Positions 4,702 to 51,183 of a DNA stretch of 64,000 nucleotides are shown piece after piece; within the stretch, counting starts at the first letter, position 1, and each line of letters opens with the position of its first letter. Under the pieces are notes generated by a model. It was given only the letters and a program-made list of their open reading frames with translations, ran no database searches and was not told the origin of the DNA. Source of the stretch: Solirubrobacterales bacterium (GTDB lineage: Bacteria > Actinomycetota > Thermoleophilia > Solirubrobacterales > 70-9); NCBI GenBank assembly GCA_025936755.1, contig JAICSS010000002.1, positions 62,001-126,000 on the forward strand, read 5' to 3'. The translations under genes were made by a program, and so were the position numbers.

Positions 4702-6024
4702 ATGAATCAGCGGATGGCGAGCCCGCCGACGCGACGCCACGCCCACCGCACGCCTGGGCGCCACACCCACTGGCGGCTCGCCAGGAATCGCCGGCGGCTG
4801 CTGCGCGGCGGCGCCCTGGCAACCCTGCTCGCGGTCGTCGGCCCTGGCCTTCTCGCCGGCCTCTCCGACGACGACCCGGCCGGGATAACGACCTACTCGA
4901 TCCTCGGCGCCGAATACGGCTACCGGCTGATCTGGGTCCTGGTCGTCTCGACCGCGGCCCTGATCGTCTTCCACGAGCTCGGCGTTCGGCTCGGGATCGT
5001 CACCGGTAAAGGGCTGCTGACCCTGGTCCGCGAGCGCTACGGGCCGAGGGCCGCGGCTCTGGTCCTCGGAGCGCTGGTGATCGCCAACACCGGCACCCTC
5101 TGCGCCGAGTTCGCGGGGGTCGCCGCCGCGATGGACCTGCTCGGGGGGATGAGCCGCTATCTCAGCGTGCCGCTTGCCGCCGCCGGCGTCTCGGCCCTGG
5201 TCCTGCGGGAGAACTTCCGCCACGTCGAGCACTTCCTGCTGGCGCTCAGCTCGGTCTTCGTCGCCTACGTGATCTCCGGCTTCCTCGCCCACCCCGACTG
5301 GGGCGCTGCCGCTCGAGGCGCCGCTGTCCCCAGCATCCCGCTTAACCGCGACGCCCTGCTGGTCGCGGTGGCGACGGTCGGGACGACCCTGGCGCCGTGG
5401 GGCCTGGCCTTCATCCAGTCCTACGCGGTCGACAAGGGCCTCACCGCCAAGGACCTTCGCTTCGAGCGCGTCGACGTCATCGTCGGCGCGGTGCTGACCG
5501 GGGTGATCGGCCTCTTCGTGATCGTCGCCTGCGCCGCGACCCTGCACACGCACGGGATCGAGGTGAACGACGCACGCGACGCGGCCAACGCGCTGGAGCC
5601 GCTGGCGGGCAGCGCCGCCGCGACCCTCTTCGGCCTCGGCTTCCTCGGCGCCGCCCTCCTGGCGGCGGCGATCGTCCCGCTCTCCACCGCCTACTCGATC
5701 TCCGAGACCCTCGGCCGCAAGGCGGACCTCGACGACAGCTTCGCCGAGGCTCGCTCCTTCTACCTCAGCTTCGCCGCCGTGGTCGCCGTCGCCGCCGCGA
5801 TCGTCCTCATCCCCGGCGCGCCGCTGATCGAGATCCTCTTCCTCACCCAGGCCCTGAACGCGGTCCTGCTGCTGGTGCTGCTGCCGTTCATGCGCTCCCT
5901 CGGCCGCGACCGCGAGCTGATGGGCGAGCACGCCCTCAGCCGGGCGGGGCGGGCGGCCACCGGCCTCGCCCTCGGCGTCATCGCCGTCGCGGTGGTGGCG
6001 CTCGGCGTGCTGGCGCTGGGGTGA
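4702..6024 (+). CDS. Nramp-family divalent metal transporter, divergent clade
   Basis: A 440-residue polytopic protein of about 11 segments. The first helix carries DPAG (58-61) where classical Mn/Fe Nramps have DPGN, and helix 6 has APW where they have the metal-binding MPH. It therefore belongs to a divergent branch and its ion should not be assumed to be Mn2+. ATG 4702 has GGAGG at 4693-4697. Its stop overlaps the GTG of phosphoketolase. A metal need of the downstream enzymes (Mg2+ for TPP) would fit this coupling but is only inference. Confidence 0.8.
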   Translation: MNQRMASPPTRRHAHRTPGRHTHWRLARNRRRLLRGGALATLLAVVGPGLLAGLSDDDPAGITTYSILGAEYGYRLIWVLVVSTAALIVFHELGVRLGIVTGKGLLTLVRERYGPRAAALVLGALVIANTGTLCAEFAGVAAAMDLLGGMSRYLSVPLAAAGVSALVLRENFRHVEHFLLALSSVFVAYVISGFLAHPDWGAAARGAAVPSIPLNRDALLVAVATVGTTLAPWGLAFIQSYAVDKGLTAKDLRFERVDVIVGAVLTGVIGLFVIVACAATLHTHGIEVNDARDAANALEPLAGSAAATLFGLGFLGAALLAAAIVPLSTAYSISETLGRKADLDDSFAEARSFYLSFAAVVAVAAAIVLIPGAPLIEILFLTQALNAVLLLVLLPFMRSLGRDRELMGEHALSRAGRAATGLALGVIAVAVVALGVLALG

Positions 6025-8393
6025 AGCTAACCTCGACCTCGGTGGCCGAGCCGAGCGAAGCCGAGCTGGATGGCCTGATCGCCTACTGGGAGGCGGCGAA
6101 CTACCTCACCGTCGCTCAGATCTACCTGCAGGGCAACCCGCTGCTGCGCGAACCGCTGCGACCCGAGCACGTCAAGCCGCGGCTGCTCGGCCACTGGGGC
6201 ACCTCCCCCGGCCTCAACCTCGTCTATGCGCAGCTCAACCGGCTGATCCGCGAGACCGGCGACGAGGTCCTCTACGTCGCCGGCCCCGGTCACGGCGGCC
6301 CGGCCGTGGTCGCCAACGTCTACCTCGAGGGCACCTACTCCGAGATCTACCCGCAGGTCTCCCAGGACGAGACAGGGCTGCTGCGGCTGGTGCGGCAGTT
6401 CTCGACTCCCGGCGGCATCCCCAGCCATGTCAGCGTGCCCACCCCCGGCTCGATCCACGAGGGCGGCGAGCTCGGCTACGCGCTGGCCCACGCCTTCGGC
6501 GCCGCCTTCGACAACCCCGACCTGCTGGTCGCCTGCGTGATCGGGGACGGCGAGGCGGAGACGGCGCCGCTGGAGGGATCGTGGAAGGGCGTGCGGTTCC
6601 TGAACCCGGCGCGGGACGGGGCGGTGCTGCCGATCCTGCACCTGAACGAGAACAAGATCTCCGGGCCGACGGTGCTGGGGCGGGTGCCCGAGGAGGAGGT
6701 CCTGCAGCTGCTGGCCGGACACGGCTACGCGGCGCGGATCGTCGCCGGCTCGGACCCACGCCGCGTCCATCGCGAGTTCGCCGCCGTCCTCGCCGAGTCC
6801 CGCGCCCGGATCGCCGCGATCAAAGACGAGGCGCGTTCGGGCCGCGGCTCCGGCCGTCCGCGCTGGCCGGCGATCGTGCTGCGCACCCCGAAGGGCTGGA
6901 CCGGCCCGGCGGAGGTCGACGGAGTCGCGGTCGAGGGCACCTTCCGCGCCCACCAGGTGCCGCTCAAAGGCGTCCGCGAGAACCCGGAGCACCTGGCGAT
7001 GCTGGAGCGCTGGATGCGCAGCTACCGGCCCGAGGAGCGCTTCGACGGGCAGGGACGCCTGGCCCCCGAGCTGGCGGCGCTGGCGCCCGAGGGCGAGCTA
7101 CGCATGGGCGCGACCCCTCAGGCCAACGGCGGTCGCCGCCTGGTGCCGCTGGAGATCCCCGACCCAGCCGCCTACGCGATCGAGGTCCGGGAGCCGGGCG
7201 CCGAGCACGCCGAATCGACCAAACGCCTCGGCCTTCTGCTGCGCGACCTCTACGCCGCCAACCCCGACAACTTCCGCCTCTTCTGTCCCGACGAGACCGA
7301 CTCCAACCGGCTCGGCGCCGTCTTCGAGGTTTCCGACCGCTGCCTGATGGACGCCCGCCCCGAGGACACCGGCGTCTCCCCCGAGGGCCGGGTGATGGAG
7401 GTCCTGTCCGAGCACAACTGCCAGGGCTGGCTCGAGGGCTACCTGCTGAACGGCCGCCACGGGCTCTTCGCCACCTACGAGGCCTTCGCGATGGTCTCCG
7501 CCTCGATGGCGATCCAGCACACGAAGTGGCTGGAGGAAATGCGGCGGCTGGACTGGCGCGCCCCGGTCGCCTCGCTCAACGTCCTCCTCACCTCGACCTG
7601 CTGGCGCAACGACCACAACGGCTTCAGCCACCAGGGGCCGGGGCTGATCGACACGATGATCAGCCTCCGCGGCGAGGTCGTCCGCATCTACTTCCCGCCC
7701 GACGCCAACTGCCTGCTCGCCGTCGCCGACCACGCCTTTCGCAGCCGCGACTACGTCAACCTGATCGTCGAGGACAAGCAGCCCCAGCTGCAGTACCTGA
7801 CCTATGAGCAGGCGCGCGCCCACGCCGCCGCCGGCGCTTCCCGCTGGGAGTGGGCGAGCAGCGACGACGGTGAGGACGCCGACGTCGTCCTCGGCTGCGC
7901 CGGGGACATCCCGACCCAGGAGACGCTCGCCGCCGCCTGGCTGCTGCGCCGCCACACGCCGGAGCTGAAGGTGCGGGTCGTGAACGTGATCGACCTGATG
8001 ACCCTGTTCCCGCGCGAAACGCACCCGCACGGCTTGCCGGAGGAGCGCTTCGTCGAGCTCTTCGGCGAAGACGACGACGTGGTGATGGCCTTCCACGGCT
8101 ACGCCCGCGCCCTGCACCAGCTCCTCCACGGCCGCCCCCACCCCGGCCGCTTCCACGTCCGCGGCTTCAGCGAGCAAGGGACGACGACCACCCCCTTCGA
8201 CATGGTCGTGATCAACCGGATGAGCCGCTACCACCTGGCGCTGGAGGCGCTGCGCCGGGCGCGCCGGGCGCCGGCCGGGGCGTCGGAGCTGGAAGCCCGC
8301 TGCGAGGAGATGCTCGACCGCCACCGCTCCTACGTGCGCGAGCACCTCGAGGACATGCCCGAGGTCCGCGACTGGACCTGGGGCGCAGGCTGA
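6021..8393 (+). CDS. xfp: Phosphoketolase (xylulose-5-P / fructose-6-P)
   Basis: A 790-residue thiamine-diphosphate enzyme, normal length for the family. It cleaves xylulose-5-phosphate (and often fructose-6-phosphate) with phosphate to acetyl-phosphate plus an aldose phosphate. Family stretches include GPGHGGPA with the following YLEGTYSE, and GDGEAETAPLEGSW, which forms part of the TPP/Mg site. The GTG start overlaps the Nramp stop (GTGA). Acetate kinase follows by two bases, so the acetyl-phosphate is converted on to acetate and ATP. Which sugar it prefers cannot be read here. Confidence 0.93.
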   Translation: MKLTSTSVAEPSEAELDGLIAYWEAANYLTVAQIYLQGNPLLREPLRPEHVKPRLLGHWGTSPGLNLVYAQLNRLIRETGDEVLYVAGPGHGGPAVVANVYLEGTYSEIYPQVSQDETGLLRLVRQFSTPGGIPSHVSVPTPGSIHEGGELGYALAHAFGAAFDNPDLLVACVIGDGEAETAPLEGSWKGVRFLNPARDGAVLPILHLNENKISGPTVLGRVPEEEVLQLLAGHGYAARIVAGSDPRRVHREFAAVLAESRARIAAIKDEARSGRGSGRPRWPAIVLRTPKGWTGPAEVDGVAVEGTFRAHQVPLKGVRENPEHLAMLERWMRSYRPEERFDGQGRLAPELAALAPEGELRMGATPQANGGRRLVPLEIPDPAAYAIEVREPGAEHAESTKRLGLLLRDLYAANPDNFRLFCPDETDSNRLGAVFEVSDRCLMDARPEDTGVSPEGRVMEVLSEHNCQGWLEGYLLNGRHGLFATYEAFAMVSASMAIQHTKWLEEMRRLDWRAPVASLNVLLTSTCWRNDHNGFSHQGPGLIDTMISLRGEVVRIYFPPDANCLLAVADHAFRSRDYVNLIVEDKQPQLQYLTYEQARAHAAAGASRWEWASSDDGEDADVVLGCAGDIPTQETLAAAWLLRRHTPELKVRVVNVIDLMTLFPRETHPHGLPEERFVELFGEDDDVVMAFHGYARALHQLLHGRPHPGRFHVRGFSEQGTTTTPFDMVVINRMSRYHLALEALRRARRAPAGASELEARCEEMLDRHRSYVREHLEDMPEVRDWTWGAG

Positions 8394-30646: not shown

Positions 30647-30689
<43 letters not shown>

Positions 30690-30786
30690 ATTGATCCGCT
30701 GGATCGGCTGGACTACGTGGAGCTAGGTTTCAAGCCGATTTCCCGAGATCGAGCTACGTGGGGATCGGCTGGAATCTGTGGGGCAT

Positions 30787-30807
30787 GTTGCCCCATTCGT
30801 TGCCCCA
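30787..30807. repeat. Paired GTTGCCCCA motifs, left end of island
   Basis: GTTGCCCCA occurs at 30787-30795 and 30799-30807, one 12-base step apart. The same pair with the same spacing and orientation lies inside the right end. The arrangement resembles arm-type binding sites of tyrosine integrases; that role is inference. Confidence 0.6.
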
Positions 30808-30855
30808 GCGGCGCTTCGGATGAAAGGGCAGATCTAGCCAAGAAATGCCCGAGAG

Positions 30856-31545
30856 CTACGGATGCTCGGCGAAAAGCCGGGGCATCCGCTCTTCGAGGTC
30901 AATGACCTTCACGTGCGCCCCATGCTTGGCCGTGAAATCCGCGATCGCCATGTCCAAGGAGCCGAACTTGTCCTCAAACAATCTCTGGGTCCGTGAGGAG
31001 CGATCCAGGCCCCAGCTCGCCTTCGACCTGCTCGTCTGAAGGAAGCGGATAGGTTGCTCGCCGAGAACGTACAACTCCGCTGCCTTGTCGGACTCCTCCG
31101 CAGCCAGGTGGACGAGGTCCTTGAACGTCTGCCGCTTGCGCATGGCGTCGCTCCCTTTCCACCGGGCCAGCTTGAACTCCGCGACCCGGCGGTCCGTCTC
31201 TAGGTCGAATGGCCGCGCCCTGTCGTTGCCTGCCGCGAGAGACGGGCGAGCTATCACCTCGCCCGGTTGAAGCAATGCCGGGAGGGAGAGTGCGATCGCC
31301 GTCGCGTGAATCACGTCACTCACCCGACCGATTCGCGCCCTGACCGTTATCGCGTCCTGGAGCAGGCCGGGGGAAATACCGGCGTCCTCGAGCAGACCGC
31401 CGACTTCCGCCTGCGTCGTTCCCTCCAACGCCTCCTCCAGACTGGCGATGGTGTCCGTCAACGGGGCTCGATCAAGAAAGGTCCCCAACGATCTCAGCGC
31501 GGATGGAAAGTCGTCACCGCTCTGCACGCGACGAGGATATGGCAA
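30856..31545 (-). CDS. Island protein with PD-(D/E)XK-like motif
   Basis: A 229-residue protein not matched to a named family by eye. A segment around 112-130 reads FDLETD followed by VAEFKLARW: an acidic residue, then E123-x-K125, the order of a PD-(D/E)XK nuclease core, followed by a basic helix (RKRQTFKDL). The first half is helical. It follows the OLD-like gene by 71 bases on the same strand, so the two may act together. The start is a TTG without a ribosome-binding site; GTG 31527 is an alternative. Nuclease activity is a hypothesis. Confidence 0.55.
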   Translation of the reverse strand: MPYPRRVQSGDDFPSALRSLGTFLDRAPLTDTIASLEEALEGTTQAEVGGLLEDAGISPGLLQDAITVRARIGRVSDVIHATAIALSLPALLQPGEVIARPSLAAGNDRARPFDLETDRRVAEFKLARWKGSDAMRKRQTFKDLVHLAAEESDKAAELYVLGEQPIRFLQTSRSKASWGLDRSSRTQRLFEDKFGSLDMAIADFTAKHGAHVKVIDLEERMPRLFAEHP

Positions 31546-31616
31546 CGAGGGAAGGGAACGGACATCAGAACGGGGGCGCGCCTGGGACGCGCTGGGGCCG
31601 AACCGAGCGCCGGCGG

Positions 31617-33476
31617 CTACGCAGCTAAACCCCGCACAGCGTCAAGGACATCGAGAAGAAAGTCAGGTGGCTGCCCAGCCTGGGCCGCCGCCTGACGGTA
31701 GACGCGCGGGTTCTTGTGAGCTCTGACGCCGAGTTCCTCTCCAATGCGGCTGCAGGCCTCTCCGAAAGCAGGCCACAGAGACTCTAGGTCGCTCTCAAGG
31801 GTGTCTGCGAAGTTGGCGCAACAGTTACGCAGGCCCCGCTCGGGCCAATCGGTGGCTTGCTCACCGCAGAGTTCGAGGATCTGGCGATTGCGCTTTGCTT
31901 GGCCGCCGTCCTGGCCCTCGATATCTCCGTCGAAAAGTGCGACGAACGGAATGTCAAGCTGGCGAAGTATCGCGATGGCAATGACGACGTTGGCCTTTGG
32001 CCCACATGGGGAGACTGCTACCCCGTCGCCGTCGAGTCCGCCCTGGGTGTCGGCAATGCCTTCGAATACAGCAGCGTCGGTCTCTCCCTCGCAAAGAAGG
32101 ACCGCCCGAGCAAAGATCGCCTCGCGAAGGCTGTCGGCAAGGGCCCTTTCAACGTTCTCGGTTACGTCCTTGCCGTAATCGACTGCCTCGATCGTCTCCG
32201 CGATGGACGCCGGATTCGCGGCGACACAGGAGCTGCTGCCGTCAGTCAGCCGCCGGCAGAGACGCAAGTCGGCGAACAGGGCGGGGCGGCTGAAGTAGGG
32301 GGAATGCGTGCTGTATGCGACCTGGATCGCCCGCGGGCCCTCGGTTCCCGCCAGGCGCTCCAAGGTCGCGGCGAGGGCCCTTGCCTGCAGCGGGTGCTGG
32401 TAAAGCTCCGGCTCCTCCACTGCAAGCATCAAAGTTCGGGGACTGCCGGCATGGCCTTCGTCGGTCTCCCCGCTTTCACGTTCTGCGATCTCATGCAGCA
32501 GGCCGATGACAAGCGCTCGCTGAAGCCCGTGACCTTGCAACTCAGGATCGATGGGGTGCCCGCCTCGATCGCTGACCTGGGCGCGAACAGAAATGTCTGG
32601 GGGGCGGGGCGGAGAGATCTGGTCCTGGAGCTTGATGGCAGCCCCTGGAAAGTAGTCCCCGACCCGCTTGGTGAGACCGGAGCTGATCGAGATCAGCTCC
32701 GACCCGCGTGCCTGGCCGACGACTTTCTCTATTGCGTCTTGGGCATCGGCCTGGAGCTTCTCGATCCGCTCGATCGAGGACTCGTCAAGGCCCTCAAGGA
32801 CTGCCAGAAGGCGGGCGAGGGTGCCCCTGCGGCGGTCGTCGCTCAGGGCGTCAGAAGCACTCGCCGTGGCCGAGACGAAGACGTAGTCGAAGCGACTTTC
32901 GAGAGTAGGAGTGCCGGTAAAGCCCCGTAGGTGGCGGGCCTCGGCAGCCATCAACTCGCACTTCTCCGGGTGCTCGCGCTCCCAGACCTCCATATTGGTC
33001 TTGATCTCGTCGGCACTCCGCGCTGGATCGGGAAGTCCAAGCTCCTCCCCGTGGTCGCGGTGCAGCGCGACATAGGCGTTGCGCAGGTCCCGTGCGCCCG
33101 AAATCGCGCGAACTGGCATGAAGTCCGGAAAAACCATGGCATTCCCGGAAAGCTTCTCGCCGTTGGCTTCGCTCCAACTCCGCGTCAAGATCGTTGTCGA
33201 GCCCTGGACATAGGCCCCCAAAGCCTCTCGGTCGCCATCGTTTAGGTCGCCGAACGTCACCGCGACCACGACCTCCCCGACGGGCTCGGGATCGTCAGCG
33301 CCGCGGTGGCGATCGCGTTCCTCGAGATCGCCGCCGTGGAAGAACCAATCAAGGGCATTCAGGACCGTGGACTTCCCGGCGCCGCCAGCACCGACAAGCG
33401 CGGTGAGGTGGTCGAAATCGACCTCCAAGGTTGCGAGGCACCGGAAACCCGCTATTTGGACCTGCGAAATCCTCAC
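31617..33476 (-). CDS. OLD-family ATP-dependent endonuclease
   Basis: A 619-residue protein: ABC-type ATPase with Walker A GAGGAGKST (29-37), a Walker B LMLAVEEPELYQHP, and a C-terminal TOPRIM domain with LLCEGETDAAVFEG and FDGD as acidic metal sites. This is the overcoming-lysogenisation-defect (OLD) fold shared with GajA of Gabija, retron Eco and PARIS-type defence nucleases. No UvrD-like GajB helicase is adjacent, so it is not Gabija. The GTG start has GGGGAG seven bases upstream. It is divergent from the Vsr gene. Confidence 0.85.
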   Translation of the reverse strand: MRISQVQIAGFRCLATLEVDFDHLTALVGAGGAGKSTVLNALDWFFHGGDLEERDRHRGADDPEPVGEVVVAVTFGDLNDGDREALGAYVQGSTTILTRSWSEANGEKLSGNAMVFPDFMPVRAISGARDLRNAYVALHRDHGEELGLPDPARSADEIKTNMEVWEREHPEKCELMAAEARHLRGFTGTPTLESRFDYVFVSATASASDALSDDRRRGTLARLLAVLEGLDESSIERIEKLQADAQDAIEKVVGQARGSELISISSGLTKRVGDYFPGAAIKLQDQISPPRPPDISVRAQVSDRGGHPIDPELQGHGLQRALVIGLLHEIAERESGETDEGHAGSPRTLMLAVEEPELYQHPLQARALAATLERLAGTEGPRAIQVAYSTHSPYFSRPALFADLRLCRRLTDGSSSCVAANPASIAETIEAVDYGKDVTENVERALADSLREAIFARAVLLCEGETDAAVFEGIADTQGGLDGDGVAVSPCGPKANVVIAIAILRQLDIPFVALFDGDIEGQDGGQAKRNRQILELCGEQATDWPERGLRNCCANFADTLESDLESLWPAFGEACSRIGEELGVRAHKNPRVYRQAAAQAGQPPDFLLDVLDAVRGLAA

Positions 33477-33579
33477 GAGCGCACTCCCCGCAACGCCGCT
33501 GCAACAATGGGCTACCTGTCCGCAACGTAGCCGCTGGCGCGGTCGGTTAGGTCCAGGAATTCAGCAGACCGCGACTCAA

Positions 33580-34017
33580 ATGGTCGACCACCTTTCCAAA
33601 GAGGGCCGGAGCCGAGTGATGTCTCGGATTCGGTCAACGGATACCGGGCCCGAGCTCGCCCTGCGGAAGGCTCTCTATGCCGCGGGGGTAAGGGGTTGGC
33701 GCTGCAACGTTCGAACTCTTCCCGGCAAGCCGGACCTAGCGTTCACGCGCGCCCGGGTTGCGGTCTTCTGCGACGGGGCTTTCTGGCACGGTCATCCAGA
33801 ACACTTCACCCCTGGAAAATCAGGACCCTACTGGGACAGCAAGATCGCCCGCACCCAGGATAGAGACCGGCACGCGAACAGCGCGCTCGCGGATATGGGT
33901 TGGCTGGTTCTTCGCTTTTGGGACTTCGAGATCGCACGGAACCTAGAGCAGTGCGTATCGCGAACTGCCGAGCTAGTGAGGTCGAGGCGAGCCGAAACTG
34001 GTACCCATGCCGGGTAG
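33580..34017 (+). CDS. vsr: Very short patch repair (Vsr) endonuclease
   Basis: A 145-residue Vsr-family nuclease. The core VFCDGAFWHGHP with the catalytic Asp, the preceding PGKPDLAF stretch, and the later GWLVLRFWDFEI are present. Vsr nicks beside T:G mismatches that arise when 5-methylcytosine deaminates, and its genes usually travel with cytosine-C5 methyltransferases. Here it points at, and ends six bases from, the double methyltransferase gene. ATG 33580 begins just before the conserved region; no strong ribosome-binding site is seen. Confidence 0.9.
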   Translation: MVDHLSKEGRSRVMSRIRSTDTGPELALRKALYAAGVRGWRCNVRTLPGKPDLAFTRARVAVFCDGAFWHGHPEHFTPGKSGPYWDSKIARTQDRDRHANSALADMGWLVLRFWDFEIARNLEQCVSRTAELVRSRRAETGTHAG

Positions 34018-34023
34018 GAGACA

Positions 34024-36327
34024 TCACACCCGCACCGCAGACTCCCGATCGTCTCGAATATCAAGCAGCGAATACTGGGCCAGTTTGGGAACTGACTCTG
34101 GGGTCCACTTGTTCCGATGCGCTCGAATCAGGTTGTTGGCGATCAACTCTGCGAGGAGCGGCGGGAAAGCGTTTCCGACTTGGAGACACTGGGCTTCACG
34201 GGAACCCCTGAACTCGATGGAATCGGGAAAGGTCTGAAGGCGCGCAGCCTCGCGCACCGTCAAACTGCGCGGCAGCCAGGGGTGGACGGGGAAAGCGTTG
34301 TGTCCAGGCACCAGAGTGATGCTTGGCTTCTTTCGGTCCAGCCGCTTGAAGACGTGGCTGAAGTGCTTGATTTCCTTCGTGCGATATCCCTTTTTCAGCT
34401 CTTTCGGAAGAGCCTCGATATCGAGGCGCCCGCCCTCCGGAATCAATTGGTACCGGGCAACCTGAAGCGCCTTGTGCCGCATCGGCACGTGGCACGTGTG
34501 CAGGTCGTAGGCGGACTCATCGGCCAGGTCACTAATCGCCTCGCCTACAGTGCGATGCGGCTTCTGCCAGTCGGTCGGGTTCTCGAAAAACTTCCTCTTT
34601 GGCCACGGAATGACCAGACCCGACCTATTCGCCATCAGAATGAACCGGCGCCGATGCTGGGGGACCCCGAAGTCGGCCGCATCGATTACACCGGCCTCCA
34701 CTGAGCCATATCCGAGACCATCCAAGCGGGACATAGCCTCGCGTACAAACTTCCCGTCTTCCAGCGTCGCGAACCCTGCAACGTTCTCCATAACCACCCA
34801 CTCGGGCTCAAGCCGCGCAACCATGTCCAAATACGACATAACAAGCCGATTCCGCGGATCTCCAGTCCCAGCGGCTTTCCTGTTCTTGGCGAGCCTGCGC
34901 TTGCCGAAGATCGAAAACCCCTGGCAAGGGGGGCCGCCCACAACCGCAAAGGGCGAACCGCCCGAAGCCTCGATCACCTCGGCCTGGGCCGATGGCAAGG
35001 ACAGATCACCGAGGACAAACGGAATCTGAGGATGGTTCGCAGCATGAGTCGCGGCAACGTCTTTGTTGAAGTCCGCTGCGACGATAGGACGGAACCCCGC
35101 TCGCTCGAAGCCGAGCAAGAACCCCCCGGCACCCGAGAAGAGGTCAACGACCGTCGGAGCGTCAGGGTCAGGGGCCGGGCGCAACCGTCGCTCTGGGTTC
35201 ACCTTCACGCGCGGGGACGGCGCGCTTCGCCTAGCGCTGGTGAACCTCGCCGCCTCGCCGCGCAGCGGAAGAATGTGGTCCCAAACTGACCGGGCGAGGA
35301 CCTGGGCGAGAAGCGGGGGAACTGCATTTCCGACCTGGATGCACTGTCGGCGCCTGTCTCCCTCAAACACATAGTCGTCGGGAAACGTCTGGAGTCTCGC
35401 AGCCTCGCGGGGAGTGAGGCTGCGATCGAGGACGGGATGCACTGGCAGAGCGTTGTTCCCTGGAACAATCGTCAATGACGGCCGCTCTCGGTGTAGGCGC
35501 TTGTAGGTGCTTCCGAAGTTCTTACGCCGGATCTCAGGCGGGAGCTGGTCGGGCGGCGGGAGCATCCCGCCCTCTGGAATCAGTTGGTAGCGGGCAATGA
35601 CCTTCTCGGTGTGAGCAAGAGCGGTGTGGTTGGGAACTTCGGCCTCGGTGCGATCCATGAGGTCATTGATCGCCTGCCCCACGGTGAGGTGGCCTTTTCT
35701 CCTCCCCTCCCCATGCGTTGGCTCAGGAAAGGAGTATTCGATGCGCGGATCGGCGAACGCGACGAATACGGCCCGCTGTCTCAGTTGCGGCACTCCATAG
35801 TCAGCCGCATTAAGGACCTGGAAAGAAACCGTGTATCCAATTGCCTCAAGGCGCTCGATGACATGGTCTCGATACCGGCCTTTGTACTCCGTGACGATCG
35901 CTTTCACATTCTCGATCACGACGGCTTGAGGCTGAATTTCATCCACCAGCCGAATGAACGCATCGACTAGCTCGTTGCGAGGATCAGAGGAATGCCGATC
36001 GCCGAGCGTTGAGAACCCCTGGCAGGGGGGTCCCCCAATAATTATGTCCGGCCGTCGACCCTTCGTCGCAGACATCAACGCATCGGCGGTAAGGGAGCGT
36101 ACGTCCTCCTGAACGAAGGGAACACCGGGCCAGTTCCGTTCATGCGTCTTCGCTGCGGCAGAGTCAACGTCGCTCGCAGCGAGCAGCCGGAATCCGGCCT
36201 GCAGAAACCCCAGGTCGAGCCCGCCGCCGCCAACGAACAGCCCTAGAGCCGTGGGGACCCCTTTTACCGTCCGAGCCCGCTTCGCTCGTTCCTTTGGTGT
36301 CTCGTGTCGGTAGTCGCGATACGCCAT
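34024..36327 (-). CDS. Tandem cytosine-C5 DNA methyltransferase, two complete domains in one protein
   Basis: A 767-residue protein made of two full m5C methyltransferases. Domain 1 (about 26-352) has motif I LFVGGGGLDLGF, motif IV GGPPCQGFS with Cys102, ENV motif VI, and QVGNAVPP motif X. Domain 2 (about 391-735) has DLFSGAGGF, GGPPCQGFS with Cys468, ENVAGF and QVGNAFPP. The two recognition regions are also alike (both contain RYQLIPEGG), so the protein arose by duplication and fusion. Both catalytic sites look intact. The gene starts six bases after the end of the presumed restriction gene, forming an R-M operon. Confidence 0.92.
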   Translation of the reverse strand: MAYRDYRHETPKERAKRARTVKGVPTALGLFVGGGGLDLGFLQAGFRLLAASDVDSAAAKTHERNWPGVPFVQEDVRSLTADALMSATKGRRPDIIIGGPPCQGFSTLGDRHSSDPRNELVDAFIRLVDEIQPQAVVIENVKAIVTEYKGRYRDHVIERLEAIGYTVSFQVLNAADYGVPQLRQRAVFVAFADPRIEYSFPEPTHGEGRRKGHLTVGQAINDLMDRTEAEVPNHTALAHTEKVIARYQLIPEGGMLPPPDQLPPEIRRKNFGSTYKRLHRERPSLTIVPGNNALPVHPVLDRSLTPREAARLQTFPDDYVFEGDRRRQCIQVGNAVPPLLAQVLARSVWDHILPLRGEAARFTSARRSAPSPRVKVNPERRLRPAPDPDAPTVVDLFSGAGGFLLGFERAGFRPIVAADFNKDVAATHAANHPQIPFVLGDLSLPSAQAEVIEASGGSPFAVVGGPPCQGFSIFGKRRLAKNRKAAGTGDPRNRLVMSYLDMVARLEPEWVVMENVAGFATLEDGKFVREAMSRLDGLGYGSVEAGVIDAADFGVPQHRRRFILMANRSGLVIPWPKRKFFENPTDWQKPHRTVGEAISDLADESAYDLHTCHVPMRHKALQVARYQLIPEGGRLDIEALPKELKKGYRTKEIKHFSHVFKRLDRKKPSITLVPGHNAFPVHPWLPRSLTVREAARLQTFPDSIEFRGSREAQCLQVGNAFPPLLAELIANNLIRAHRNKWTPESVPKLAQYSLLDIRDDRESAVRV

Positions 36328-36333
36328 GGGCGC

Positions 36334-38148
36334 CTACAGCTCCACATTGAGAGCTTCGATAACCCGCTCCCATTCGATTGGCACGCCGACACCCAGCCGG
36401 TGGCGCTTGGACGACACAAATCCATAGGTACGAAGGAGGGTGAGCTCAACCTGAAATGGAGTCCTCTGTCTTGGCCGGTTGCGACCTGAGACCTTCCGCA
36501 TCACCTTGAGCTCCTCCGCCATATCGGTCTCAACGTCCGAGAGGTACTCGAAATACGACTCCTCGTTGAACGTCGGCGTCCCGCTGGCAGACTCACGGGT
36601 GTAGGCCAAGGGATTCGCCGCGAACCGGCGCTCCGACAAGCGGTGGAGGTAGTGAAGGAACGACTCATACCGGCCCGTCTGCAGAAGCGTCGCGCCTACG
36701 TACTCCTTCGCAGCAGCCGAATTCGGACCCCCGAATCGCTCGCACAAGCTGGTGTATCGATATCCAAGGTCGGTCGGCCTCCCATCGTCGTCCAGCCATC
36801 CAAGGTGCATAAGGGAGCTATCGAGATCCTCTCTGTAGCTGTGAGCGCGATCCCTAATGCCTTGTTTCGCTTGACGCCCAGCCTGAGGCGGTATCCCGGA
36901 GGCAAACATCTCCCACGCCTCGTCCTCGCTTACGGCGCCGGCATTAAGCAGTGCGACAAGCGTCTCCTTCAAGCCGTTAGTCCGTCCCTCGAAAATCTGA
37001 CTCATCGCGCGCTCGTCGTCGCGAGCGATCCGCGTATAAGCGTCCGGCGTCTTGTACGTGCCCTCCTCATTAACCCACGGGGTAAGTACCTCCGGAGTGA
37101 CGATCCACTCAAACCAGAACGCGCGCCAGACCTGAGAGAGAAAGCGATCATCGGCAGTGTTCGCGAGATAGTTTTCTGCCGTCTTGTCGGGCGCCAGTCG
37201 CGTGATTGCTGCAGTCAACTCCGCCGGGATCGGCGGCAAGGGCGTTATCTGGCCTGACGAGAGCCGCTTGGCCACCTGAAGCAAGCGGAAGAAGGCGTCC
37301 CTCGTCGTGGAGCCCTCGCGCATGTGAACCCACTGCGTTCGCGGGCTGGTCGAGGTCCTTTTCAGGCGCTGGCCCGCAGCGCTGTCGACCACCCGCAGCG
37401 TCCGCCTACATGCGATCCGGCCTGAAAACGGTGCGGCAAGGGTCGTATCCGGCTCTTCGTAGGTGAAGACCCCGATGGCCTTCGACTGGCTAACGTCGTC
37501 AAGAACCCGAGTAACGTATTCGCCCGCGTCCGAGAGAGTTGGGAACGCCTCGGGTATGACGATCGCCACGCCGTTGTAGCCCTTGTCAATGTAGGCGTGG
37601 GCTTGGCCGATTGCCGTAAGCAAGCCATGCACCCCCTCGTTGGGGCGCTTGTACTCAAGCGCGATATCACGCTGGCTGCTTCCCGCGCCCTCCAGAAGCA
37701 CGACCACGCCGTCGGCCCTCGGCCAGGGCGAGGAAGATGCCTCGTTCGAGGCGCTTGCGCTCAAAGCCCCAGGTGCGCTGCTGACCTCGTAGCAAAGGGA
37801 CGCATCGGCGGCAAACATCCGCGCAAGCTCCGACCCAGCAAAGTCGGCCTCTGCGTTGTGGCTGTACGTCACTTCGAAAAGCGGACGCCGAAGTTTTCGA
37901 ACAGCTCGGCCGGACCTCCCGCGGCCCACGAAACGCAAAAGTCTCGATGCGGAAAAACCCCAGCAGCAACTGGGACTACTGGCGCGCGAAGTAGCCTCAC
38001 GGCGGCAGTGTGCATCACGGGTCGGACGGCATCCCTCGGACAGCCACCTCCCTGAGCCAAAGCTCAAAAGGGGAAGGTCGGCGCATAGGCGCCAATCACG
38101 CCGGCGCGGACCTGCTTTAGAGGCAGACGTATCCTGAAAGACGCTCAT
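36334..38148 (-). CDS. Probable restriction endonuclease (PD-(D/E)XK) partner of the double methyltransferase
   Basis: Up to 604 residues. D146 and E165-x-K167 (in DIALEYKRPNEG) form a PD-(D/E)XK core, followed by a QAHAY motif (182-186) as in RecB-like nucleases. The remaining 400 residues are unlike any family I know. ATG 38148 has a well-spaced GAGAGG, but the first 85 or so residues are Cys/Arg/Ser-rich and unlike the rest. A later start (GTG 37929 or 37872) or a frameshift near 37.9 kb is possible. Gene order with the methyltransferase supports restriction; specificity is unknown. Confidence 0.7.
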   Translation of the reverse strand: MSVFQDTSASKAGPRRRDWRLCADLPLLSFGSGRWLSEGCRPTRDAHCRREATSRASSPSCCWGFSASRLLRFVGRGRSGRAVRKLRRPLFEVTYSHNAEADFAGSELARMFAADASLCYEVSSAPGALSASASNEASSSPWPRADGVVVLLEGAGSSQRDIALEYKRPNEGVHGLLTAIGQAHAYIDKGYNGVAIVIPEAFPTLSDAGEYVTRVLDDVSQSKAIGVFTYEEPDTTLAAPFSGRIACRRTLRVVDSAAGQRLKRTSTSPRTQWVHMREGSTTRDAFFRLLQVAKRLSSGQITPLPPIPAELTAAITRLAPDKTAENYLANTADDRFLSQVWRAFWFEWIVTPEVLTPWVNEEGTYKTPDAYTRIARDDERAMSQIFEGRTNGLKETLVALLNAGAVSEDEAWEMFASGIPPQAGRQAKQGIRDRAHSYREDLDSSLMHLGWLDDDGRPTDLGYRYTSLCERFGGPNSAAAKEYVGATLLQTGRYESFLHYLHRLSERRFAANPLAYTRESASGTPTFNEESYFEYLSDVETDMAEELKVMRKVSGRNRPRQRTPFQVELTLLRTYGFVSSKRHRLGVGVPIEWERVIEALNVEL

Positions 38149-38347
38149 GAGGTCACCTCTCGTGAGCCGGGGGCGGGCCGTGACAGCGGTGCCGCCCCAT
38201 TTGACGTGTGCAGACAGAATGTATCAAGGTCCGTGGCGGAAAGTGCCGTCACTCAGGCGGGCAAAGCGAGCCTCTCGAGCTTCGTGTTGCCCCAAGCGTT
38301 GCCCCACGGCCGATTTTACACCCTGTTGTCTGTAAGACAATAAAACT
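38149..38347. other. Non-coding right end of island
   Basis: Between the restriction gene start and the tRNA terminator I see no gene. It holds the promoter region of the R-M operon and the second pair of GTTGCCCCA motifs. No controller (C-protein) gene or C-box was recognised. Confidence 0.5.
38286..38306. repeat. Paired GTTGCCCCA motifs, right end of island
   Basis: Copies at 38286-38294 and 38298-38306 repeat the left-end arrangement exactly: same strand, same 12-base step, different three-base spacer. They lie about 73 bases inside the right att copy. Confidence 0.6.
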
Positions 38348-38373
38348 AAAAGGCCCGCATATGCGGGCCTTTT
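38348..38373 (-). terminator. Intrinsic terminator of tRNA-fMet
   Basis: A perfect palindrome: AAAA, then GGCCCGCAT facing ATGCGGGCC, then TTTT. On either strand it gives a nine-base-pair stem with a T-run. It begins seven bases beyond the 3' end of the tRNA gene and lies on the island side of the att site, so the island has supplied the terminator. Confidence 0.85.
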
Positions 38374-38378
38374 ACGAA

Positions 38379-38453
<75 letters not shown>

Positions 38454-48951: not shown

Positions 48952-51183
48952 TCAGGCCGCCGGCGTCTGCGGCACTTCCCGCAGCGGCGAGTTGGCGGGG
49001 CCGCAGGCTTCCGGATCGAGGTCCCCACGGACCTCCCAGACGGTGACCGGACCGCTGCGCAGGATCGGCCGCACCGCCTTCTCCCCCCGTAGCCAGCGCG
49101 CCTCCGGCGAGGCGATCGGATCCCCCGGGTGGAGGAAGTCGAGGAAGGGAGCCGTCACCAGGTAGTCGAGGTCGGCCGCGTTGACGGCGGCGCGGAAGGC
49201 GGCGCAGGTGGGGAGCGCGTCGAAGGCCCCGTGCGGCCCGTCTTCGCCGAGGTAGCGGACGCGGTTGCTGAGGTCGGTCCCGTAGAAGCCATAGCCGGCG
49301 AAGCCGGCGGTGGTGCCGGCGAGGCCGATCCGGGCGTCCTCGACCCCGCGCGCCCAGCGGTAGGCGTCGTCGAGGTGCATGCCGGGGATTCGTTCCCCGG
49401 CGCTGCCCTCGTTGGCGAAGCGGTGCTCGAGGTAGTGGCGCTGGAGCGGGTAGCCGATCGCGACCAGGCAGACGAGGAGTGCGGCGGCGGCCAGAGGAGC
49501 GGCGCCTGGGCCGCGGTTGCGGTCGCGCAGGTGGAGCAGCAGCGCCGGCGCCAGGACGAGGAGGACGACGAGGACGAAGGCGAAGACGCGGCCTTTGTCG
49601 TGGAGGGCGTCGTCGGGCCGGTTGGTGACGAGGAAGACGAGCACCAGCGCCCCTGCGAGCCCCCACTGCCGCCGCGGCCCGTCGAGCCAGCGGTCGAGCG
49701 GCAGCAGGACGATCCCGGCGAGCAGGGCGGGGATCACGTAGCGGATGTTGATCCCGAAGCCGACCGGTTCGCCCTCGGCCCCGGCGGCGCCGAGCGGCGT
49801 GAAGAGGTAGGCGAGGGCGCCGAAGAGGGCGACGGCGCCGACCCAGCGGACGATTCCGTCGCGGCCGCGGAGAAGGGCGAGGAGCGCCGCCGCGAGGGCG
49901 CCGAAGACGACCAGCGGCCAGAGCGTCCCGAAGGCCTCGTGCAGGCCCGGCCCGAAGTACGCCCGCCAGACGCCGGTGTCGGTCGCGTAGTGGACGATGC
50001 TGAAGTCCGGCCGCCCTTCCTGCAGCCGCTCGGGATGCGGCAGGGAGATCGGCCCCAGCTTCTCCACCTCCGGGATCGGATTCCCCGCGACCACCAGGTT
50101 CCGCAGGTACCAGAACGCCCCGCCCGCCAGAGCCGCTCCGATCCACCACCCCGCCGAGGCCCACCGCCGCCCCTGCGGCGCCAGCGCCACCACGGCCACC
50201 GTCAGCGCCCCCGCCATCGCCAGCCCCGTAACCCGCGTCCCCGCCGCCAGCCCGGCCCCCAGCCCGGCAGCCGCCAGCGCCCACCGGTCCCACCCAGGGT
50301 GTGGTTGAGCTTTGGCGTGTATAGCGCGCCGAAGCTCAACCACACCCCGGGATGAGTGGGCCTCGACGAGGATCGCGATCGAGGCCAGCAGCAGCGCCGC
50401 GGCCATCAGGTCGTTCTTGGCGGCTCCCGGATCGCGCACCACCAGCGTGTGGCACTCGAGCAGGATCGCGGCGGCGATCACGGTCACCGCTCCGCGGCCG
50501 TAGGGGCGACCGACGCAATACGCGGCTAAAAACGCCACTCCCAGCCATCCAAAGTTCAAGAACAGACTCAGCGTGTCCCGCCCCGTCAGCAGGATCCCCA
50601 CCGCGTGCAGCAACTCCGAGTTCTGCGGATAGAACCAATTCGTGAAGACCGTCTCCACGTGATGCATCCCGACGACGCTGTGCGTCTGCACCATGTCGAC
50701 AGCGAACGGCAGGTGGTACCAGAGGCTGTCGAAGTTGAAGATGCCTCTGTCCCAGGCGTGTTGCGCGGTGACCCCCCAACTGAATACGGTCGCTGAGACC
50801 ACCAGCAGCATTACGAGCCAGAGCCAAGGCGCTCCTCCCGCGGGTGGCACGGTAGGGGGGACCATCCCTGAGGAAGCTTTAGCTACCGGAAGGGATGGGG
50901 GATCCCCTGCCGTGACAGGACCCGCGGGCCAGAACGCAACCGTCCCTGCAACCAAAAGCGACGCCCCGATCAGCGCCCCGGCATAGAACAACCCAAACGT
51001 CCCGAGGATCTCGGACAACCAGATGACCAGCGCCACCCCGACGATCGCCTCGACCAACCGCGCCGGCGCCCCCTGCCACCCCGGCAGCAACCGCCCCCGC
51101 AGCCGATATGCGCTGAACCCGACCGGCACGACCACAAGGGCCAGCTGGGCGACTCCCAGGAGGTAGCCGCCGAGGTCAACCAT
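48952..51183 (-). CDS. Large polytopic membrane protein, glycosyltransferase-39/DUF6541-like
   Basis: A 743-residue protein with about 14 membrane helices and a soluble C-terminal part. An extracellular loop after the fourth or fifth helix holds AWDRGIFNFDSLWYHLP, reminiscent of the acidic loop of polyprenyl-phosphate sugar transferases. Mannosyl- or glycosyl-transfer at the membrane is the best guess, without a decisive motif. GGGAG precedes the ATG. Two long inverted repeats lie inside the reading frame and seem to add residues in loops. Confidence 0.65.
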   Translation of the reverse strand: MVDLGGYLLGVAQLALVVVPVGFSAYRLRGRLLPGWQGAPARLVEAIVGVALVIWLSEILGTFGLFYAGALIGASLLVAGTVAFWPAGPVTAGDPPSLPVAKASSGMVPPTVPPAGGAPWLWLVMLLVVSATVFSWGVTAQHAWDRGIFNFDSLWYHLPFAVDMVQTHSVVGMHHVETVFTNWFYPQNSELLHAVGILLTGRDTLSLFLNFGWLGVAFLAAYCVGRPYGRGAVTVIAAAILLECHTLVVRDPGAAKNDLMAAALLLASIAILVEAHSSRGVVELRRAIHAKAQPHPGWDRWALAAAGLGAGLAAGTRVTGLAMAGALTVAVVALAPQGRRWASAGWWIGAALAGGAFWYLRNLVVAGNPIPEVEKLGPISLPHPERLQEGRPDFSIVHYATDTGVWRAYFGPGLHEAFGTLWPLVVFGALAAALLALLRGRDGIVRWVGAVALFGALAYLFTPLGAAGAEGEPVGFGINIRYVIPALLAGIVLLPLDRWLDGPRRQWGLAGALVLVFLVTNRPDDALHDKGRVFAFVLVVLLVLAPALLLHLRDRNRGPGAAPLAAAALLVCLVAIGYPLQRHYLEHRFANEGSAGERIPGMHLDDAYRWARGVEDARIGLAGTTAGFAGYGFYGTDLSNRVRYLGEDGPHGAFDALPTCAAFRAAVNAADLDYLVTAPFLDFLHPGDPIASPEARWLRGEKAVRPILRSGPVTVWEVRGDLDPEACGPANSPLREVPQTPAA
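50297..50347. repeat. 51-bp palindromic element inside a coding sequence
   Basis: A perfect 16-base inverted repeat, 50297-50312 with 50332-50347. The stem extends inward by a G:T and then four more pairs (GGCG/CGCC). It is translated in frame in a loop of the membrane protein. It looks like an inserted REP- or RPE-like element; no second copy is in the window. Confidence 0.75.
50862..50898. repeat. Second inverted repeat in the same coding sequence
   Basis: CCATCCCT (50862-50869) pairs with AGGGATGG (50891-50898) around a 21-base centre. It falls in a Pro/Ala-rich loop of the encoded protein and is less GC-rich than its surroundings. Confidence 0.5.

Follow-up and report, generated by a model that had tools for sequence, protein, structure and literature searches.

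Why should one bacterial gene encode two complete cytosine-C5 (m5C) DNA methyltransferases in a single chain, and what would each of them do? The question is raised by a gene in the 64,000-nucleotide stretch of Solirubrobacterales DNA analysed here (the window), whose reading frame on the minus strand (34024..36327) runs from an ATG at 36327 to a stop codon ending at 34024 and encodes 767 amino acids. A first-pass annotation, which gave coordinates without a strand, had described the product as one polypeptide with two complete m5C methyltransferases, and this description holds: the Pfam profile PF00145 (DNA_methylase) matches the N half from profile position 5 to 321 of 324 (E 2.5e-65) and the C half from 2 to 323 of 324 (E 3.0e-57), the two matches sum to 414 bits, and the frame has no internal stop and is open through the linker. 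The N-terminal domain (35287..36243, aa 29–347) is M1-like and the C-terminal domain (34120..35160, about aa 390–736) M2-like by their Pfam matches and their grouping in the tree described below; over 348 aa the two halves are 43% identical. Each half has a complete PF00145 match and the PCQ, ENV, QxRxR and GNA motifs, which together define a member of the m5C family. The two motif IV cysteines, Cys102 (codon 36022..36024) and Cys468 (codon 34924..34926), had been named correctly in the first-pass annotation; both lie within an identical GGPPCQGFS motif, whose PPCQGF part is invariant across the aligned members. The multi-specific phage m5C methyltransferases, in which one catalytic core serves several target-recognition domains, were considered as a class for this protein and are ruled out by its two complete cores. 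An AlphaFold model of the fused protein (from an alignment of 3 sequences) reached a pLDDT of 54.8 with low confidence in the target-recognition regions and linker, so that the arrangement of the halves cannot be read from it.

Fused homologues 46–49% identical to the window protein, with both halves intact, are found on related plasmids, on contigs and in one genome. One and the same 737-aa fused enzyme is encoded by the Acinetobacter plasmids pAV1, pBspH11 and pTR11_3, where a gene for a 418-aa restriction protein (R) comes next; this enzyme shows 49% identity to the window protein across its entire length, with 50% between the N halves and 49% between the C halves. Further fused copies with an adjacent R gene are present on two IMG/VR contigs (L063 and L064) and in an actinobacterial genome (G230), the latter being the one further homologue found when 346 genomes of the phylum were searched with the fused enzyme (P0001); in G230 a Vsr reading frame comes after the methyltransferase and R genes. 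An IMG/VR scan with the N-half recognition region matched L063, L064 and L066 only, and L066 has M1 and M2 as separate genes that overlap by 14 nt and are followed by an R gene. The linkage of methyltransferase and R was seen in all related loci examined. Given the overlapping genes of L066, an apparent fusion might in principle come from a frame error, and the first-pass annotation had named a sequencing join of two genes as fatal to its proposal. Such a join of neighbouring genes, in sequencing or in assembly, is excluded for the family, as is chance, by the independent homologues that have the same joined frame (the Acinetobacter plasmids, one of them circular, L063, L064 and G230), and with the window frame running through the linker without a stop we regard it as having a negligible chance of being correct here.

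It might also be that only one half is catalytic and the other serves DNA binding, dimer-like stability or regulation, since some DNA methyltransferases do have inactive partners. This is improbable for the present enzyme, as all catalytic motifs are intact in both halves of the five (of five) aligned fused members and in the unfused pair, and the two halves are similarly conserved (50–54% identity between the window N half and other N halves, and 45–50% between the corresponding C halves).

The gene that lies next to the methyltransferase gene gives a strong indication of what the two active sites are for. It shares the strand of the methyltransferase gene, ends 6 nt before the start of that gene (36334..37872, minus strand) and encodes the cognate restriction endonuclease R, a protein of ~512 aa; its longest open frame starts at 38148, but by alignment with L066 R and PaqCI translation should begin at a GTG, at 37872. 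The position of R upstream of the methyltransferase gene may bear on the timing of their expression. PaqCI, from Paucibacter aquatile, belongs to the Type IIS enzymes; its recognition sequence is CACCTGC, and the cuts are made 4 and 8 bases downstream (PMC10201449). A phmmer comparison of R with PaqCI (PDB 8em1/8epx) gave an E value of 1.2e-210 with residues 2–511 aligned against 3–510, so the homology is full length, and the identity is about 60% (58–63% by Foldseek). The AlphaFold model of R is weak (55.7 overall), and it was a Foldseek search with this model that led to PaqCI; the sequence search confirms the homology independently of any structure model. R also matches the PADLOC REase_II model (299 bits), and has no match among the Pfam or NCBIfam profiles. 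A search of 396 genomes of the phylum with an R profile brought up no further member, and R as query (P0002) found no match in plasmids or in viral contigs.

Six aligned R proteins share, without exception, the P, D, E-x-K and Q residues that characterise PD-(D/E)xK nucleases. The window locus combines full-length PaqCI homology, the nuclease motif and a linked methyltransferase gene, as a PaqCI-type system should. From the ~60% identity to PaqCI, R is predicted to recognise CACCTGC and to cut 4/8 downstream, and at this identity its specificity may have shifted. L066 R is 36% identical to window R; these two long R proteins (~500 aa) have diverged strongly from the shorter R proteins, and those of the other fused members are only 18–20% identical to window R, so their site may differ, for example by having a shorter core. 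The Acinetobacter pair WP_012268408 (methyltransferase) and WP_012268407 (R) illustrates both sides of this relationship: as in the window, an orthologous fused methyltransferase adjoins a related R, but that R is short (418 aa) and only ~18% identical to the window protein. It is annotated as hypothetical, and we found no experiment on either Acinetobacter protein in the literature.

If R is active the host needs protection, since its 2.4 Mb genome has 819 CACCTGC sites. We found no depletion of this sequence in the host genome, and near relatives have it at similar densities; there is no need for a host to avoid CACCTGC if it is protected or was colonised recently, so the lack of depletion neither supports nor refutes the proposed site. 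The same observation is what could be said for a different reading, in which the restriction partner has lost its activity and the methyltransferase, now on its own, is a remnant or serves as an epigenetic marker, but it is equally expected of a fully protected host. The R frame of the window is open and full length and has the family-conserved P50, D53, E72, K74 and Q89 (alignment numbering), and we give such a solitary methyltransferase very little credence.

On the other side of the methyltransferase gene is a convergent gene for a Vsr-type mismatch endonuclease (33580..34017, plus strand; TIGR00632, 112.9 bits, above the cut-off), and the two genes end 6 nt apart. The established role of the Vsr family is repair of the T:G mismatches left by m5C deamination, and this Vsr is probably the T:G repair partner of the fused m5C enzyme.

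The CACCTGC strand of the predicted site has four cytosines and the GCAGGTG strand has one, and since the site has no symmetry a single m5C specificity cannot protect both strands. Do the two halves look like enzymes that divide such a task? The N-half target-recognition region (35425..35772, minus strand), between motifs VIII and IX, has the signature RRKNFG(N/S)TYKRL, and the C-half region (34270..34644, minus strand), which is ~9 residues longer, has the signature SHV(F/Y)KRL. Among the members the mean identity of these regions is 53.6% for N against N, 51.5% for C against C and 39.9% for N against C, compared with 28% to other m5C enzymes, while the N–C identity of the catalytic part (37.3%) is no higher than the 38–41% that it has to other m5C enzymes. 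By these alignments each half owns a conserved recognition region, and the two regions are more alike than their catalytic parts would predict. Their likeness had been noticed in the first-pass annotation, which pointed to RYQLIPEGG and a VPG-N-A-PVHP stretch in both halves; both are real, and the second is partly a family-wide stretch that precedes motif IX. Such likeness is compatible with two enzymes reading one site from opposite strands and is no proof of it. The recognition regions are nonetheless distinct, with different conserved signatures, as would be expected if the halves methylated two different sequences in the manner of the multi-specific phage enzymes, and not two strands of one. 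We consider this dual specificity, which the first-pass annotation had offered as its own alternative, unlikely, although less so than the other alternatives, since a single R, homologous to an enzyme of Type IIS whose site is asymmetric, adjoins the fused gene, since the recognition regions stand well above the 28% background, and since the unfused relative L066 likewise has two m5C genes and one R.

A maximum-likelihood tree, built from 57 m5C domains with six N/M1 and six C/M2 sequences among them, was used to examine the history of the two halves. All 12 of these halves form one clade (100/99), in agreement with the whole-enzyme duplication that the first-pass annotation had proposed. Within it the C/M2 sequences are monophyletic (100/98); the five fused N halves cluster with one another (100/97), as do the five fused C halves (99/88), and both L066 genes branch outside the fused-half groups; the placement of the L066 M1 gene on the N side is weak (78/20). 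A wider quick tree of 72 rows agrees. The simplest history supported by these trees is an old duplication, divergence as two separate genes and then one later fusion. Thus the fusion that had been proposed stands with a refinement, in that the enzymes joined would already have diverged, as the unfused L066 M1 and M2 indicate.

Fusion of an m5C pair has also occurred elsewhere. A viral contig, L065, encodes a 728-aa fused m5C pair (5944–8130) beside an AAA_5 protein and a RE_LlaJI protein (PF09563, E 5.9e-52). In the tree its halves cluster with tandem pairs of unfused M1 and M2 genes, such as L082, L102, L109 and L115, and relatives of its RE_LlaJI protein adjoin other tandem pairs, for example L078 and L099. 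Since the L065 halves lie in another clade than the window halves, this fusion is independent, and fusion of m5C pairs has therefore happened at least twice.

We conclude, with a probability of roughly 80%, that the locus is a PaqCI-type (Type IIS) restriction-modification (R-M) system in which two strand-specific m5C enzymes have been fused, one half for each strand of CACCTGC/GCAGGTG. Beneath this reading lie two complete domains with both active sites conserved, the homology of R, the unfused relative with its own R, and the tree; from them we infer enzyme activity, the exact site and the assignment of a strand to each half. In such a system strand-specific enzymes that had duplicated, diverged and later fused would act as one polypeptide, one half would methylate a cytosine in CACCTGC and the other the single C of GCAGGTG, R would cut DNA that lacks the methyl marks, and the convergent Vsr would probably mend T:G mismatches arising from deaminated m5C. 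The proposal that the enzyme serves both strands of one asymmetric site, made in the first-pass annotation without reference to R, is strongly supported by the adjacent PaqCI homologue. A more specific idea, which we hold to be doubtful, is that the covalent pair methylates both CACCTGC strands in one concerted binding event, so that no lasting half-marked intermediate would follow replication, and that the fusion has been kept because it leaves no interval for PaqCI-type cutting of the host DNA.

In all probability the R-M system belongs to a genomic island situated in a tRNA-Met gene. Two identical 43-bp stretches of the tRNA-Met 3' half stand as direct repeats at 30647–30689 and 38379–38421, and the 7.7 kb between the repeats has a G+C content of about 60–65%, against about 70%, and contains the R-M genes, vsr, an OLD-family nuclease gene and one uncharacterised gene. 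No integrase family was matched among the island genes scanned, and the tyrosine recombinase matches of the host genome are on other contigs. The same tRNA-Met adjoins a ppx/gppA-type gene in the six relatives examined. In a genome of the same genus (G010, locus L164) there are three copies of the repeat (1075–1117, 5378–5420 and 6451–6493) on the same side of tRNA-Met, which suggests a repeated insertion hotspot with tandem cassettes. The island also encodes an OLD/GajA-like ATPase-nuclease (31617–33476, minus strand), after which comes the uncharacterised gene (30856–31545, minus strand), whose 229-aa product has no family match and contains an EFK stretch; possibly these two genes form a two-gene defence system. 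The window has 22 CACCTGC sites, all of them outside the island (30690–38378); about 2.6 would be expected inside it, a difference that is not significant. The only other m5C methyltransferase match of the host genome (G000) is outside the window, on contig C18 (41914–42432), ~7 kb from a tyrosine recombinase (49209–50354), and this methyltransferase is perhaps on another mobile element.

How does the locus compare with known systems? PaqCI itself, to which window R is homologous over its full length, was expressed in E. coli with one methyltransferase gene, M.BspMI, as protection (PMC10201449). A review table lists M.BspMI as an m6A enzyme (PMC12114051); we set this entry aside, as the same table is wrong on M.SssI (given as CGCG, m4C). 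In the literature, with REBASE lying outside the search, we found no paper on a fused m5C–m5C pair or on the sequence of M.BspMI or M.AarI, either of which may share the fused architecture. The protection of asymmetric sites through replication was described as mostly obscure in a 2025 review (PMC12707154), and a natural covalent m5C pair with a predicted known site and an unfused relative makes the comparison of fused and split enzymes testable. The fused enzyme may also offer a single-gene protecting methylase for PaqCI, which is used in Golden Gate assembly.

In LlaJI of Lactococcus two separate m5C enzymes protect the asymmetric GACGC (PMC1459862). Its restriction uses McrB/McrC-like subunits, unlike the window system. 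In a LlaJI-type system an AAA+ R1 and an RE_LlaJI (PF09563) R2 adjoin the two m5C enzymes, and the genes neighbouring the window methyltransferase have no PF09563 match, such as L065 has, so the locus is not a LlaJI-type R-M system; the LlaJI-type viral locus L065, like the window, has its two m5C enzymes fused. The HgaI/MhoVI systems, which act at GACGC and of which MhoVI has two separate m5C enzymes (PMC12376442), resemble the window by description in combining two m5C enzymes with one Type IIS nuclease, and differ from it in their separate methyltransferase genes and different nuclease. The literature already contains a fused double methyltransferase that serves an asymmetric site, although for 6mA: MhoVII of Mycoplasma hominis modifies both strands of GATG/CATC (PMC12898733). 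The window locus is built in the same way, a single polypeptide containing both complete methyltransferase domains and being linked to one restriction endonuclease; the division of one strand per half has been demonstrated for MhoVII. MhoVII joins 6mA enzymes from two classes, YhdJ and D12, whereas both window halves are m5C enzymes and, of all enzymes sampled, are most closely related to each other; the window enzyme is thus outside the MhoVII family proper, and would follow the same working principle in another family.
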